In this document: positions 9,241 through 28,860 of the stretch, piece by piece
How the letters are laid out: the number at the start of each line of letters is the position of its first letter
Numbering within the stretch: position 1 is the first letter of the stretch
Source of the DNA: Thermoplasmata archaeon
GTDB taxonomy: Archaea > Thermoplasmatota > Thermoplasmata > Methanomassiliicoccales > Methanomethylophilaceae
Length of the DNA: 35,567 nucleotides
Reading direction: 5' to 3'
Assembly (NCBI GenBank): GCA_015063235.1
Contig: SUSW01000038.1
Coordinates: 1 to 35,567 of the forward strand
Notes under the pieces: generated by a model
Databases searched by the model: none
Seen by the model: only the letters and a program-made list of their open reading frames with translations
Told to the model about the DNA's origin: nothing
Program-made: the position numbers and the translations under genes

Positions 9241-10761
9241 ATGGTTAGCGACGAGATATTGGAAGGATTGAGCTACAACGAGAAGAAGCTGCTGCTTGCT
9301 TTGAACAGAATGGGCGGGGCCGCGACACCCGCACAGCTGATCGATGCAGAGGACTTCGGACTGGAAGTCGAGATCATGGGAGCGGCCTCATGGCTGGAGT
9401 CCAAAGGGATGGCCAAAATTAAGGAAGACTCCGAGAAATACATCACTCTCACCGATATGTCCGTAGTGGAGCAGGGTCTGCCAGAAAGGATAGCGATCAC
9501 CAATATAGATGCCGCAGGCGGAAAGCTGGACATGAACGTCCTCGCCGAGAAGATGTCCGACGGATTGGACAAGGTCGCGGTAGGTTGGCTCAAAAGGAAG
9601 GCATTGGCCGATATAGTTTCAGAGGGGGATTTAAAGTACCTCGTACTGACCGACAAGGGAAAGTCCATGATCGGCATCGAGATGCCCGAAGAGGCATTGC
9701 TCAAGAGACTGGCAGCCGGCCCCGTCCTCGCAGAGGAAGCGGATGCGGCGGCCGTCAAGGATCTCAAGGGCAGGAAAGGCGTCCTAGGGGAGAAGATCGT
9801 CACAGAGAGGTCCATATCGCTCACTGATTCAGGAAAGGAGGTCGCTGCATCCGGTATCGAGCTCAAGCCTCAGGTCACCGAGATCACAGACCGCCTCATC
9901 CAGTCTGGGGAATGGAAGAATGCGGAGTTCAGGAAATACGACATCCAGACCTTTGCACCTGCAATAGTGCCGGCGAAGAAGCATCCCCTTTCCAGGCTCG
10001 GAGCCCAGATAAGGAGGATGTTCACGGATATGGGATTCGTGGAGATGTCCTCGGAGTATGTCCAGCCCTCATTCTGGAATCTGGATGTCCTGTTCACACC
10101 CCAGGACCACCCGGCAAGGGACCTTCAGGATACATTCTACCTTGAGAATCCGCGCTCGATACACATCGACGATGAGGAGCTTCTCGAGAAGATAAGGAAC
10201 ATCCACGAGAACGGCGGGGACACCGGTTCCACTGGATGGGGCGGAAAGTGGTCCAGGGATATGGCAGAATCCGCACTCCTCAGGACGCACAGCACGGTCA
10301 CCAGCATCAGGTACATCTCGCAGCATCCGGATGCGCCCCAGAAGGCGTTCTCCATCTCAAGGATATTCAGGAACGAATCCATCGATGCCACGCATCTTCC
10401 CGAGTTCACGCAGATTGAGGGAATTGTCATCGACGAGAACGCCGACTTCAACATGCTGGTCTCGATGATCAGGGAGTTCTACGCGAAGATGGGATTCGAT
10501 CAGATCCGCATCCGTCCCGCTTATTTCCCCTATACCGAGCCTTCGCTGGAGATCGAGGTCTTCTTCAACGGTAAGTGGATGGAGCTCGGAGGAGCCGGGA
10601 TGTTCAGGCCTGAGGTTCTCGCACCATTCGGAGTCAAGACTCCTGTCCTCGCATGGGGATTCGGATTCGAGAGGCTTGCGATGCTCAAGTGGAACATAAA
10701 GGACATCAGGGACCTTTACATCTCTGATATCGACACTCTCAAGAAGAATACAATCTTCTGA
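9241..10761 (+). CDS. pheS: Phenylalanyl-tRNA synthetase alpha subunit
   Basis: About 506 residues, the long archaeal/eukaryotic type of the class II PheRS alpha chain. The N-terminal ~200 residues form winged-helix-like domains (SYNEKKLLLALNRMGG). The catalytic domain begins near 250, with motif 2 around SISRIFRNESIDATHLPEF and motif 3 around VLAWGFGFERLAML. ATG 9241 is preferred over the in-frame ATG at 9229, which overlaps the trpS stop. The beta subunit gene is not in the window. The last 405 bases are overlapped on the opposite strand by an open frame from the convergent gene. Confidence 0.94.
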   Translation: MVSDEILEGLSYNEKKLLLALNRMGGAATPAQLIDAEDFGLEVEIMGAASWLESKGMAKIKEDSEKYITLTDMSVVEQGLPERIAITNIDAAGGKLDMNVLAEKMSDGLDKVAVGWLKRKALADIVSEGDLKYLVLTDKGKSMIGIEMPEEALLKRLAAGPVLAEEADAAAVKDLKGRKGVLGEKIVTERSISLTDSGKEVAASGIELKPQVTEITDRLIQSGEWKNAEFRKYDIQTFAPAIVPAKKHPLSRLGAQIRRMFTDMGFVEMSSEYVQPSFWNLDVLFTPQDHPARDLQDTFYLENPRSIHIDDEELLEKIRNIHENGGDTGSTGWGGKWSRDMAESALLRTHSTVTSIRYISQHPDAPQKAFSISRIFRNESIDATHLPEFTQIEGIVIDENADFNMLVSMIREFYAKMGFDQIRIRPAYFPYTEPSLEIEVFFNGKWMELGGAGMFRPEVLAPFGVKTPVLAWGFGFERLAMLKWNIKDIRDLYISDIDTLKKNTIF

Positions 10762-11958
10762 ATCAACGGGGAAGAGCCGGTCGCAGAACTTTCTCAGATC
10801 GGCCTTCCTTCCTTCATTTCTGCTTATAGCGGCAGCATTCTCCAATACGATCCTGGCATCGGCCTTCCTCCCCATCTCCATAAGAGCGAACGATTCATAC
10901 GCCAGGAGTATGTCCATCCTGAAAATGCAGTGATCCCGGGACATCCTGGATTCTGCTTCCGAGAATATGGTCATCGCTTCCTCAGGTTTCCCTGACCAAA
11001 GGAGGCAGACGCCTTCCGTCATCAGGCTGTCTGCACTATTATCATCGACATCGGAGATGATGCTGTAAGCCCTTTCGATCATGTGCTGTCTCAGGGCAAT
11101 TTCGGCCTTCAATATAGATCCTGCGTTCTGATCCTTCAGGGAGATCCTGTCCGTTATCTCTGCCGCATCATCGATCTTTCCGGAATCGATCATCATCCTT
11201 GCTGCTATCTTCTGAAGATCGGTATCGTCCTGTCTTTCAAGAAGAATCGGCAGCGAATCGAGAACCTTGGTCTGAAGGGAATCGATCAGCATGAATCTCC
11301 TGTCCCTGATGAGTCTGATCGCCTCCCTGTCCCTGTGCGCCATGACCAGGTGATATATCCTCTCGGAAATGCCTTTCTCATGATCGATGCACCAATCTGC
11401 CGCTTTGCTGTGCCATCTGATCAGCAGATCGGGGCTTGCGTTGTCCAGAATCTTCTTCTTGAGTTCAGGTCTGATGTAAGCGTTGTTATCGTTCTTGAAG
11501 TAGATGAATGGGATGTCCGCAGGAAAGCTGTCCTTCGTAACGGTCTGTTCGAGAAGACAGTAGCACCCCAGCATATCCGCCTGATACCGGTCCATCTGAC
11601 TGAGGTTCGAGGCCATGTTATCGGCGCTGTCCAGAGCCTCATCGATGCAGATCCCCAGTACGGAGAGCTCATTCTAACGGCTCTGATAGATCTCCTTCCC
11701 GCGATTGGTGAGGTGATACACCTTCCTTCTGTGCATCTTGCTGCTCTTCTTGATGGTAGAGGAGCTTGCTTCCACTTCCTCTCCGGCCATCATCTTGCTG
11801 ATGATGATGCTGACATGTGAGCGGGATATCCCCAGTTTCATAGCTATCCCGTCCTGAGTGATATCGAACGGTGCTCCGTATTGAATGTCGCGGCTGATGT
11901 ATATGAAACGGTGCAGATGAGCAAGCGTTTTGTCGTGGAGTGTTATCGGGTTGTCCAT
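10357..11958 (-). CDS. Winged-helix + helical-repeat protein with in-frame TAG at codon 95
   Basis: Codons 1-94 (11958 to 11677) encode a winged helix: DGIAMKLGISRSHVSIIISKM is the recognition region and YHLTNRGKEIY the wing. A single TAG (11674-11676) follows, and the same frame continues for hundreds of codons. The continuation is an alpha-helical, TPR/MalT-like segment (KAADWCIDHEKG, then AKAEIALRQHM-type helix pairs up to about codon 395). No Shine-Dalgarno precedes the first methionine after the TAG (11616), so the parts look like one gene. The frame then stays open 405 bases antisense to pheS; this tail is probably accidental, so the true C-terminus is uncertain, and a lost stop or frameshift near 10765 is possible. 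Function unknown, perhaps a regulator with a ligand-sensing helical domain. The TAG may be pyrrolysine, read-through or a disabling mutation. Confidence 0.6.
11674..11676 (-). other. In-frame TAG inside winged-helix/helical-repeat gene
   Basis: Read on the minus strand, the codons run Ser-Arg-TAG-Asn-Glu-Leu-Ser-Val-Leu-Gly. The frame is open on both sides (94 codons before, more than 400 after). A small stem, TCTCC/GGGGA with a five-base loop (11666-11652), begins eight bases after the TAG, but it is weak and I do not claim it is a specific insertion signal. Pyrrolysine decoding is inferred from lineage only. Confidence 0.55.
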
Positions 11959-13722: not shown

Positions 13723-13755
13723 CACATTCAGGGATGGGTGGGGTAGGTGGACCTA

Positions 13756-14994
13756 ATGGCAGATATCAATACTGAGAATTCTGAGGACAGGGCAAGGTAC
13801 GATTTCAAGAAAGATATGCAGGAGATCATGAACTACAGGGGCAGAGGAACAGAACTCATCTCCTGTTACGTTCCGGAGAACAAACCCATCTCCGATGTAA
13901 TGGCATATCTCAGGAATGAGCAGTCTCAGGCATCCAACATCAAGTCGAAGACGACGATGAAGAATGTCACGAGCGCTATCGATTCCATCGCCTCTCGACT
14001 CAAAACATTCAAACAGGCACCGCCGAACGGCATAGTCATCTTCTGCGGAGAGGTCCCCCGTGCAGGAGATCAGACCAAGATGGTCCAATATGTGATCCAT
14101 CCGCCGGAGGCTATCACGGCATTCCTTTACAGGTGCGATTCCGATTTCTTCACGGAACCCCTGGAATCGATGATGCTGGATAAGAAGTGCTACGGACTCA
14201 TAACCATCGACAGGTCCGAAGCCACATTAGGTCTTCTCAACGGTAGCAGGATCCAGGTTCTGAAGCATTTCGATTCATTAGTCCCCAGTAAGCACCACCA
14301 GGGAGGTCAGTCGTCAGTCCGTTTCGAAAGGCTGATCGAGATCGCCGCCCACGAGTTCTTCACAAAGGTGGCGGACAACTGTACCGAGTATTTCCTCAAC
14401 AGGCCGGAGCTGCTGGGGATACTTGTCGGAGGGCCGGGTTACACTAAGGAGTTCTTCGTTAAAGAAGAGTATCTCCACCACGAGCTCAGGAAGAAGATCA
14501 TCACCCCTCTCGTGGATACAGGTTACACAGACGAGTCCGGACTCAGGGAACTCGTTCAGAATTCACAGAATATCCTTACCGGTCTTCAGCTGGCAAGGGA
14601 GAAGGTCTACATGCAGAGGCTTTTCACGGAGATCAGGAAGGCTGACGGAGGACTTTCCGCATACGGAGAGGATGAGGTCAGGAACTACCTCGTCAGCGGA
14701 GCCGTCGACACCGTGCTTCTGTCAGAGGCCATCAAGAAAAGGCGTATCACGGTCCAGTGTCAGCAGGGACATGTCCACGAGCTCACGGTGGCCGATTCCG
14801 ACGCTAGTATCCCCTGTCCCGAATGCGGGAGCAAGACACAGATAACCTCGGATGAGGATTTCATCGACGACTTCTTCAACAAAGCTGAGATGTTCAACAC
14901 ACGCGTGCAGCTCATCTCTCCAGATTCAGAGGAAGGAGACATGCTGCTGAAGGCTTTCGGAGGAGTGGCAGCCCTCCTGAGATACAGGATGTGA
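13756..14994 (+). CDS. prf1: Peptide chain release factor aRF1
   Basis: A 412-residue archaeal class I release factor recognising stop codons and triggering peptidyl-tRNA hydrolysis. Numbered from ATG 13756, the decoding NIKS motif is at residues 61-64, YxCxxxF at 125-131 (YRCDSDF) and the catalytic GGQ at 183-185. The C-terminal domain has a zinc-finger-like CQQGHxHE...CPECG segment. All decoding motifs look canonical, so nothing in this copy obviously excludes UAG recognition. An in-frame GTG (13747) would add three residues. The gene overlaps a possible GTG start of argS. Confidence 0.96.
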   Translation: MADINTENSEDRARYDFKKDMQEIMNYRGRGTELISCYVPENKPISDVMAYLRNEQSQASNIKSKTTMKNVTSAIDSIASRLKTFKQAPPNGIVIFCGEVPRAGDQTKMVQYVIHPPEAITAFLYRCDSDFFTEPLESMMLDKKCYGLITIDRSEATLGLLNGSRIQVLKHFDSLVPSKHHQGGQSSVRFERLIEIAAHEFFTKVADNCTEYFLNRPELLGILVGGPGYTKEFFVKEEYLHHELRKKIITPLVDTGYTDESGLRELVQNSQNILTGLQLAREKVYMQRLFTEIRKADGGLSAYGEDEVRNYLVSGAVDTVLLSEAIKKRRITVQCQQGHVHELTVADSDASIPCPECGSKTQITSDEDFIDDFFNKAEMFNTRVQLISPDSEEGDMLLKAFGGVAALLRYRM

Positions 14995-26179: not shown

Positions 26180-26908
26180 ATGCATGTAAGTTCCATGGAG
26201 ATCTGGAACGGACTGTGTTTCATGCACGACCCCGACACTTCAAAGAGGGCTTTCATATTCGACATGTACGGCACCCTTGTAAGGGCAAGGTTCGGTAATC
26301 TGGATGATATATACGATGCATTCTACAGACTGTTCCCGGACGCCGATCCCAGGGATGTTCAGGATGAGTACCAGAGGTACGTGAACCATTACGAAAGGAC
26401 GTTCGGCCCACACAGAGAGATGACGATTTCCGACCTACTGGAACATATGGATTCGGTCTTTCATACGGACAACGACAGCCTGGAAGCCGAGAACGTACTG
26501 ATGCGTTCTACGCACACGTTCATACCAGTGGAAGGGGCGGAAGAGACGCTGTCTTACTTCAAGGACCATGGATACAGGATAGGGGTCTTGAGCAACACAT
26601 CCTACCGTGGTTCGGTGGTGAAAGGGTTGCTTGAGGACGTGGGGTTCGACCATCTTATAGATGCGGTGGTCAGCAGCGCCGACGTAGGTTACAGGAAACC
26701 TCATGATAACGCATACAGTGCAGCGGTAGAATCGATTGGAGCGCAGAGATGGGACTGTTTCTTCGCAGGGGACAGTGAGGATAAGGATTACCTCGGGCCC
26801 AGAAGGTTCGGAATGAGAGGAACGTTCCTCATCGATCCCAAGAGGTCATCCAAGGAATGCGGGATAGTAGCATCCATAGCGGACATCCCCAGCTTCTTCC
26901 GCGACTGA
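26180..26908 (+). CDS. HAD-superfamily hydrolase
   Basis: About 240 residues with all four HAD motifs: FIFDMYGTLV (nucleophile Asp), VLSNTSYRG (motif II), KPHDNAYSAA (motif III lysine) and FFAGDSEDKDY (motif IV). An inserted helical cap lies between motifs I and II, so it is a subfamily I phosphatase or dehalogenase-like enzyme of unknown substrate. The start is uncertain: the frame opens with GTG 26156, and ATG 26180, 26195 and 26222 are alternatives; the last would begin just before the first motif. The next gene starts 14 bases after the stop, preceded by GGAGG. Confidence 0.85.
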   Translation: MHVSSMEIWNGLCFMHDPDTSKRAFIFDMYGTLVRARFGNLDDIYDAFYRLFPDADPRDVQDEYQRYVNHYERTFGPHREMTISDLLEHMDSVFHTDNDSLEAENVLMRSTHTFIPVEGAEETLSYFKDHGYRIGVLSNTSYRGSVVKGLLEDVGFDHLIDAVVSSADVGYRKPHDNAYSAAVESIGAQRWDCFFAGDSEDKDYLGPRRFGMRGTFLIDPKRSSKECGIVASIADIPSFFRD

Positions 26909-26922
26909 AAGGAGGCGGTCAC

Positions 26923-28860
26923 ATGGTCCAGAAGAACATAGCTCACGGGAAGGAGATATGCAGATGGTGCGACACATGCGGCAATCTGATACTGGGCGAA
27001 TGCTGTTCCCGCTGCGGTTCGGAAGGACGCGAGTTCGAGATCAACAGTCCTGGAGACATCAGGCCGTGCATGGGCGACAGCATCGGCCTAGTCCTCTCAT
27101 TGTTCAGGGATGCTTTCGGTACGGATTCTCCGCTGAAGGGCAGGATGATGTTCTTCAACAAAGTGCCTGGTGAGGACCGTACCGATGAGATCATCGCCGA
27201 CGGATCCGTACTGGGGATACTGCGTTTCGATATGAAGCTGGACCGCATCCTGCTGGAGATCAGGCAGCCAGGAGCGGATATGTTCTGCAATGTGGCCACC
27301 AAGAATGTGGTGATCTTCGGAGGAATGTCCGGTCATCTCAAGGGCAAGACGGTCCCCGGAGCAAATATCGTCGATGTTATAGGGGACTTCTAGACAGGCT
27401 CCACCCTCATACTGAAAAAGGGTCAGAAGGTCGGTCCAGGCATAGCACTGGTGGACAGCGCTTCTCTCAGGGTCGCTGATAGGGCGGTGAAGATACGCGA
27501 CCTGAATGCTCCTGCGGAAAGGCCTCCGGCGAAGAAATCGGGGATCAAGGAGTTCGTCGAGGTCAATGAGGACCACTTCAGAAGGATTAGCAGGCGTGCC
27601 GTGAAGGAGATACGTAGGTTCCTGGACGAGAAGAATGTGAAAGGTCTTCCGATCACCGTATCATTTTCAGGCGGAAAGGATTCCCTGGCGGCATACGGTC
27701 TGACCGTAGAGGCGAAGGAGAATCCGGAACTGATGTACATCGACACGGGTTTGGAGTTTCCGGAGACAGTGGATTACGTCAGATCATTCGCGTTGGAACA
27801 CGACAGGAAACTTCATGTGGCGGAAGGGAAGAACGGATTTTGGGAAAATGTGGATACGTTCGGTCCGCCTGCCAAGGACTTCAGATGGTGCTGCAAGGTC
27901 TGCAAGCTCGGACCGACCACCGATATGATCTCTTCTATCTACCCGAAAGGGACCATCACAGTCGAAGGAAACCGCTGGCTCGAGTCCTACGCCCGTTCCG
28001 GCATAGGATTCGTAACGAAGAATCCGTTCGTACCCAATCAGATCAACCTCAACCCCATACGCTCATGGTGCGCAGCCGAGGTCTGGGGATATATACTGAT
28101 GTCAGGTCTGGAGTACAATCCGCTCTACGACAGGGATTTCGAGAGGATCGGTTGCTATCTGTGCCCGTCCTGTCTGTCCAGCGAGTGGAGGAACACCGGC
28201 CGCATCCATCCGGAGCTGTACGGAAAATGGGAATCCTATCTCCATGAGTATGCTGAGGATAAAGGTCTTCCGAAGGAATATGCTGATATGGGATTCTGGA
28301 GATGGAAGGTCCTTCCGCCCAAGATGATCCAGCTTTCGGAGGAGATGCAGATATCCCTGAAGCCGAAGAAGGCGTCCGGACCTACAATAAGGGTGCTGAA
28401 GGGGGCATCCCCGTGTACGGCCGGCGGATATTCTATCGAGGCCGTGGTCAACGTTAACAGGGTGAGGGATTTCTCGTATGTGGAGGATGCGTTACGTACT
28501 ATCGGCGAGGTGAAGTATTCTCCGGAATATGAGATTGCTCTGGTAAAGACCCCCATAGGTAGGGCTAAGCTGTTCGGAGGCGGACAGGTATCCGTCACCG
28601 CTCCCGACGCCAAGAATGCCAAGAAGGTATTCGATAAGGCAGTCAGGACCCTCATTCGCGCCGAGCTGTGCACAGAATGCAGAATATGCACTAAGAAGTG
28701 CCCCCGCCGTGCGATCATCATAAAGGGAGGCATGAGGGTGGATCCGGAGAGGTGCAATTCGTGCGGAAAGTGCACAGAATCCTGCCCGCCCTACCATTAT
28801 TATGACAAGATCATGGAATCTGTCGACATCTCCGAAAAGGGATGTCCGGCCAAAAGGTAA
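26923..28860 (+). CDS. Zn-ribbon/PUA/PAPS-reductase-like/ferredoxin protein with in-frame TAG at codon 157
   Basis: Read through the TAG at 27391-27393, the gene encodes 645 residues in the order seen in a methanogen family: N-terminal zinc ribbon (C16, C19, C28, C31), NSPGDIRP block and PUA-like domain (about 75-190), PAPS-reductase/adenine-nucleotide alpha-hydrolase domain with SFSGGKDS (SGGKDS at 249-254), a cysteine-rich WCCKVCKLGP segment, then C-terminal ferredoxin modules (C583/586/589/593 and C611/614/617/621). The TAG splits the PUA domain: ANIVDVIGDF precedes it and TGSTLILKKGQKVGPGIALVD follows, as in uninterrupted homologues. ATG 26923 has GGAGG upstream; nothing suggests a separate start after the TAG. 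The family is thought to act in sulfur transfer, but the exact reaction is unknown. Pyrrolysine insertion, read-through or mutation are all possible. Confidence 0.8.
27391..27393 (+). other. In-frame TAG inside PUA domain, candidate pyrrolysine codon
   Basis: The reading is Gly-Asp-Phe-TAG-Thr-Gly-Ser. The frame is open for 156 codons before and 488 codons after. A weak ACCCT/AGGGT stem (27403-27407 with 27419-27423) lies downstream, which is not convincing as a specific insertion element. In related proteins this position falls in a variable surface turn of the PUA domain, so a bulky residue could be tolerated. Confidence 0.65.

Follow-up and report, generated by a model that had tools for sequence, protein, structure and literature searches.

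The pyrrolysine residue of MtmB is catalytic. A far wider use of the same residue reportedly exists: Kivenson et al. are said to have described, in Science in 2025, an archaeal 'Pyl code' in which all TAG codons stand for pyrrolysine in proteins of many functions, with protein evidence. Thg1 (tRNA-His guanylyltransferase) of Methanosarcina acetivorans carries a pyrrolysine that was seen physically, is dispensable for activity and is attributed to neutral evolution (Heinemann 2009, as related in the 2010 review PMC2933860). For 'Ca. Methanomethylophilus alvus', excerpts of Borrel 2014 (PMC4153887) predict 16 non-methyltransferase pyrrolysine proteins, give TAG as a rare stop codon (1.6%) and propose as a mechanism that a mutation can become stable when the cell suppresses it. 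The same excerpts mention an Fe-S protein with an amber codon in 'Ca. M. intestinalis' and say that M. alvus lacks this protein.

Here we analyze a window of 35,567 nucleotides (the whole stretch of DNA under study), which corresponds to contig C39 of G000, a 1.78-Mb genome assembly of 54 contigs that is 87% complete and belongs to a gut-type methanogen of the order Methanomassiliicoccales. One of its genes contains an in-frame TAG. We consider, with a probability of roughly 0.84, that this UAG is translated as pyrrolysine and that it represents a neutral substitution at a tolerant site, being neither a catalytic residue nor the point of a regulated split.

An intact gene with a single internal TAG

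The features discussed below are collected in Table 1. The frame runs from the ATG at 26923 to a TAA at 28858-28860, TAG 27391-27393 is its sole internal stop, and it specifies 645 residues if the TAG is counted as one. The match to NCBIfam NF010366 (PRK13795) runs across the TAG, from residue 25 to residue 657 of the 667-aa open reading frame and from position 28 to position 662 of the 667 of the model, with 666.2 bits. When scored separately, the part before the TAG matches model positions 28-177 (106.9 bits) and the part after it positions 183-662 (539.6 bits); since these are successive stretches of the model, the two halves are consecutive parts of one protein. The view of the initial annotation that the TAG lies in frame within a gene is thereby borne out. 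As the score is below the curated cut-off of NF010366 (745 bits), though nearly the whole model is aligned, we call the gene a relative of PRK13795 and do not certify it as a member.

Table 1. Positions of the features discussed (window coordinates, or locus name followed by locus coordinates)
Feature	Position	Strand	Remarks
Shine-Dalgarno-like sequence	26908..26915	+	AAAGGAGG; upstream of likely start
Zn-ribbon-like / PUA-like / PAPS-reductase-like / 2x[4Fe-4S] ferredoxin gene	26923..28860	+	one in-frame TAG; relative of PRK13795 (NF010366)
Four-cysteine CxxC...CxxC N-terminal segment	26968..27015	+	Zn-ribbon-like
In-frame TAG	27391..27393	+	proposed pyrrolysine codon, residue 157 of 645
PAPS-reductase domain (PF01507)	27652..28170	+	SGGKDS invariant
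2x[4Fe-4S] ferredoxin-type module	28654..28788	+	Pfam
Canonical aRF1	13747..14994	+	NIKS and YRCDSDF; same motifs in sister genomes compared
Second TAG gene of the window	10357..11958	-	533 codons; TAG 11674-11676; winged-helix-like N-terminus (by eye), weak TPR matches
Citramalate synthase	L224:4526-6085	+	TAG at residue 189; TIGR00977 residues 7-517, 691.1 bits, cut-off 450
TnpB-family gene	L357:2186-3352	-	TAG inside DRD-x-NAA; C-terminal part would need read-through
IS5-like transposase frame	L219:9321-10616	-	two in-frame TAGs

Pfam places both the PAPS-reductase domain and the ferredoxin modules downstream of the TAG, and together with NF010366 it confirms that the SGGKDS and ferredoxin modules follow in the same frame, as had been proposed. 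Upstream, Cys 16, 19, 28 and 31 of the N-terminal segment are invariant among the 53 sequences of alignment A1, and the spacing of these cysteines suggests the 'Zn-ribbon' label. The placement of the TAG in the middle of a PUA-like domain is weakly borne out. The window protein itself gives no Pfam PUA match at E 0.01; in the relative L202, a PUA match below the Pfam cut-off covers residues 138-185 and takes in the TAG column (residue 155). Across the 53 sequences of A1, 17 give a PUA match at E 0.01, and among seven relatives inspected singly two have the match, both under the Pfam cut-off.

As regards the new ribosome-binding site that was said to be absent after the TAG, no obvious restart was seen. 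The first in-frame ATG past the TAG, at 27733, is already beyond SGGKDS, and a GGAG- or GAGG-like site is absent from the 16 bases upstream of each of the four in-frame GTGs between the TAG and 27733. A PDB search returned APS/PAPS reductases and ferredoxin-bearing enzymes as relatives, with weak scores. Neither the PDB nor the RNA searches gave anything bearing on the TAG; an Rfam scan of the window detected one tRNA and nothing else, and a literature search on the function of the enzyme gave, among the papers listed, none on the gene's family.

A genome equipped to decode UAG

The initial annotation had suggested a search of the genome for the pyrrolysine genes; tRNA-Pyl(CUA), pylS, pylB, pylC and pylD were all found. 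The tRNA-Pyl, with anticodon CUA, is on contig C47, where the PylS C-terminal family (261.2 bits), PylB (439), PylC (316.5) and PylD (198.8) lie side by side, each above its cut-off, with two MtmB genes bearing an in-frame TAG on one side of PylS. G000 hence encodes tRNA-Pyl(CUA), PylRS and PylBCD, the set that marks a pyrrolysine-decoding organism. In a survey of the 31 genomes of the genus, all gave an MtmB match and 28 a PylS match. In a genome with this full Pyl system, read-through of the UAG as pyrrolysine, which the initial annotation had put forward, is by far the best fit.

The window also encodes a canonical aRF1 (Table 1). NIKS and YxCxxxF are standard motifs of this factor, and since the aRF1 of G000 retains them, UAG probably still causes termination in part of the cases, and read-through may yield less than 100%.

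A relative of the release factors, found in other genomes, also bears a TAG. This paralogue has GGM for GGQ and is without NIKS, and its TAG is at the same codon in L408, L409 and L410 (from G125, G126 and G136, respectively), in the context gaaTAGctccaagg; the fourth copy, L411 of G134, has GAG there. PylD is above cut-off in G125 and G134 but not in G126 and G136, and a PylS match, which was obtained for 92 genomes, is lacking in both G126 and G136. The shared TAG of the paralogue therefore occurs where assemblies showed no Pyl genes. Such a conserved codon, in a protein related to release factors, could serve to sense whether UAG is being decoded.

A private TAG in a variable column

The gene is nearly universal in the order: it was detected at E 1e-100 in 138 of 147 genomes, and in 73 of the 74 genomes with a completeness of 90% or more, with one match in G000. 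One copy each from 129 of the 138 genomes was aligned, the nine omitted being mostly partial copies. TAG occupies this column in G000 only (1/129), so that UAG is not conserved across the orthologues, unlike in the MtmB type. The 128 other orthologues have 16 kinds of residues there (S 30, R 21, K 16, E 12, Q 11, G 10 and ten more kinds), and 617 of the 624 columns are less variable than this one. Among the eight orthologues closest to G000 in identity, five encode Lys here with AAG, a single substitution from TAG; in the gene tree as drawn (branch support not considered), G000 has L017 as its neighbour, with TTC. A special role for residue 157 finds no support: its codon is TAG in one orthologue of 129, and its column ranks among the most variable.

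The idea that the UAG splits a short Zn-ribbon/half-PUA form from the full enzyme fares no better. Such a regulated switch could draw on the termination expected where aRF1 and tRNA-Pyl compete, as described in excerpts of PMC9499178. However, none of the 128 relatives shares this TAG, the cut would fall within a domain predicted in relatives, and the search for a PYLIS-like stem-loop or other RNA fold downstream of the TAG revealed none beyond chance (z 0.81). Considering also the variable column and the other in-frame TAGs of the genome, we regard the switch as the least probable of the explanations weighed in this work.

Two other peculiarities were noticed among the orthologues. L039 (also L175), from the PylS-bearing genome G070, has a TAG at a different place, where the 128 others all have TGG (Trp); this TAG may be an error, result from a nonsense mutation or encode pyrrolysine. 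Since this Trp is otherwise invariant, TAGs in the family need not all be benign. In L069 (G109) and L118 (G036), a TGA around query residue 542-544 ends the frame ahead of the ferredoxin part, on contigs that continue, which would correspond either to loss of the ferredoxin module or to a frameshift.

Constraint downstream of the TAG

A recent nonsense mutation, by which UAG would terminate translation and the gene would stand at the onset of decay into a pseudogene, accounts readily for a TAG private to G000. It sits poorly with a near-universal gene that is the sole match in its genome and that has kept, beyond the TAG, each of the 79 columns without variation in the other orthologues and each of the 107 near-invariant ones (at least 97% conserved). 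The dN/dS ratios of G000 against nine genomes are 0.06-0.18 upstream and 0.07-0.11 downstream, these values being rough with synonymous sites near saturation.

The one sign that leans toward decay is mild. With the tree fixed, the downstream/upstream length of the terminal branch of G000 is 1.94, versus 1.18 for the whole tree, and two of the other 29 branches have a higher ratio, L025 (2.89) and L012, a zero-length branch whose ratio is meaningless. This weak excess of downstream change could be due to chance, to a faster-evolving half or to slight relaxation. Private changes were also counted for G000 and G081 (upstream 8 vs 3, downstream 45 vs 6), a comparison discarded as biased, G081 not being the gene-tree neighbour of G000; the branch lengths, used in its place, lean the same way, mildly. 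Of the situation that the initial annotation had named as contrary to its proposal, relatives all with a sense codon and this strain with other decay, the first half is what we observe (sense codons in 128 of 128 other orthologues) and the second, bar this mild rate excess, is absent. The nonsense mutation is further disfavored by the UAG-reading tRNA of the genome, by private TAGs in unrelated genes such as that of citramalate synthase, and by the lack of a similar excess for TGA and TAA (see below). Altogether, we deem it improbable.

TAG stops across the genome

The use of TAG was examined in 652 kb of G000 (37%), made up of the initial parts of 40 contigs together with the window and L059, the stretch with the pyl genes, using a simple codon-usage gene caller; a coding extension was defined as at least 30 codons past the stop. 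The 594 complete genes of this sample end in TGA (518), TAA (51) or TAG (25). Coding extensions follow 16 of the 25 TAGs, versus 29 of the 569 TGA and TAA codons (Fisher p 9e-14), and removal of the window and L059, which were chosen and non-random, leaves 11 of 20 versus 27 of 519 (p 5e-9).

All 29 extensions in the second class follow TGA and none TAA, and they differ in kind from those past TAG. An in-frame ATG is found within five codons in 15 of the 29 TGA cases versus none of the 16 TAG cases, and its absence within 35 codons concerns 10 of the 16 TAG cases versus two of the 29 TGA cases. The TGA extensions thus mostly resemble downstream neighbours that share the frame. For 10 of the 14 TGA cases without an early ATG, a family scan was made: nine had no listed match across the stop, and in the tenth, L221, the stop is crossed by whole-protein models, which cover a small metal-binding protein together with an ATPase that has a ribosome site and a start of its own. 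These figures also speak against a sequencing or assembly error, which should have produced TGA and TAA interruptions as well. That the TAG is based on a single assembly is a point in favor of an error, and the TAG of L039 at an otherwise invariant Trp may be one; for the TAG at 27391, we hold this explanation to be even less credible than a nonsense mutation.

Family scans were carried out for 20 of the 25 TAG cases, 18 by NCBIfam and Pfam and the two mtmB by PF05369. In 10 of the 20, one family or domain model spans the TAG: the PRK13795-like gene, citramalate synthase, an amidohydrolase (below cut-off), TnpB, a GNAT protein, a methyltransferase, a Na/Pi symporter (PhoU domain), a PD-(D/E)XK nuclease and the two mtmB. 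A TerB_N match in L059 stops five residues beyond its TAG. Nine of the 25 TAGs have no coding extension by the criteria used; one of these, in TnpB, is still inside a family match, and the others may be real stops. As regards full reassignment of UAG, the split of 16 TAGs with and nine without extension stands beside an aRF1 whose NIKS and YxCxxxF motifs are unchanged.

The sister genomes, considered for comparison only, exhibit the same pattern. Extensions follow six of nine TAGs in the Pyl-bearing G078, versus 22 of 382 other stops, and four of eight in G082, versus 24 of 372; the excess of TAGs with a coding extension is common to the genus. G082 had been considered as a Pyl-negative control from the same genus and was rejected: this genome (96% complete) gives no PylS match, yet has mtmB genes with in-frame TAG, perhaps owing to an assembly gap.

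Other interrupted genes

Contrary to the initial annotation, for which no other gene in the window ended in TAG, the minus-strand frame 10357-11958 is interrupted by a TAG as well. At its column, TAG is present in G000 only among 30 loci, three of which have no residue there. Relatives of this gene in L314 (G087) and L329 have TAGs at other places; the aligned frame of L314 contains three TAGs and two TGAs, which may reflect decay, a gene of lesser length or additional pyrrolysine codons.

Citramalate synthase offers a parallel case in an unrelated gene. It is present in 28 of the 31 genomes of the genus and TAG-interrupted in G000 only, where it is the one match at E 1e-150; relatives have Ser, Ala, Glu and others at the TAG column. 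Two mobile-element genes are listed in Table 1 as well, the TnpB-family gene, whose TAG is inside what we take to be a conserved TnpB motif (DRD-x-NAA), and the IS5-like transposase frame.

Probable acquisition of pyrrolysine by drift

We propose that a sense codon was changed to TAG by mutation on the G000 lineage, at a highly variable position. In the presence of charged tRNA-Pyl(CUA), such a change would be a mild missense mutation rather than a nonsense mutation, and therefore could drift in at a tolerant position. Decoding of the UAG by tRNA-Pyl(CUA) and PylRS would yield one full-length protein of 645 residues, with some termination expected from competition between aRF1 and tRNA-Pyl. 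Judged from the alignment, residue 157 would occupy a surface position in the fold, and the pyrrolysine predicted there is probably functionally neutral. Drift of TAG as a pyrrolysine codon explains why, in the three genes compared with relatives, the TAGs are private and in variable columns, why they occur in unrelated genes and why the frames are intact.

A broader reading is that UAG approximates a 62nd sense codon in this uncultured gut-type lineage. Pyrrolysine would then be part of many housekeeping proteins, including the near-universal Fe-S enzyme, the single citramalate synthase, a phosphate transporter and TnpB, and growth would be pyrrolysine-dependent even without methylamines, while the release-factor motifs stay standard. 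We put this forward tentatively, at slightly less than an even chance.

The PRK13795-like gene is a clear candidate for the spread of pyrrolysine by drift beyond the methylamine methyltransferases. Standard annotation would break real genes, one of them present in 73 of the 74 good genomes of the order, plus citramalate synthase, and in genomes of the genus, genes should be called with TAG treated as sense.

Comparison with known systems

Four described situations can be set against this locus. First, MtmB shares with it an in-frame UAG within the same genome, but the MtmB codon is common to the genus, whereas the TAG of the PRK13795-like gene is private and in a variable column. Second, the 'Pyl code', as reported, resembles it through the use of UAG as a general sense codon; the present case is a candidate from sequence, in a genome where reassignment may be complete or partial. 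Third, the genes predicted in 'Ca. M. alvus' (PMC4153887, in the excerpts considered) belong to the same order and are likewise TAG-interrupted with both halves matching the same protein, the species being different. In Table 7 of that article, no entry fits the PRK13795-like gene, citramalate synthase or the second TAG gene of the window by name or size, and the Fe-S protein of 'Ca. M. intestinalis', from what the excerpts say of it, would not fit a near-universal gene.

Finally, Thg1 is the closest parallel in type. In both cases, one species gained an amber codon within the frame of a widely distributed gene, at a residue that is dispensable in Thg1 and probably neutral here. The PRK13795-like gene shows one protein family on both sides of a private TAG, sense codons in the relatives and a tolerant column. 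The two cases differ in the order and the enzyme concerned, and in that pyrrolysine was observed physically in Thg1 and is predicted from sequence here. The mechanism is thus already known from Thg1 and from the predictions in 'Ca. M. alvus', and the PRK13795-like gene is a new example of it.
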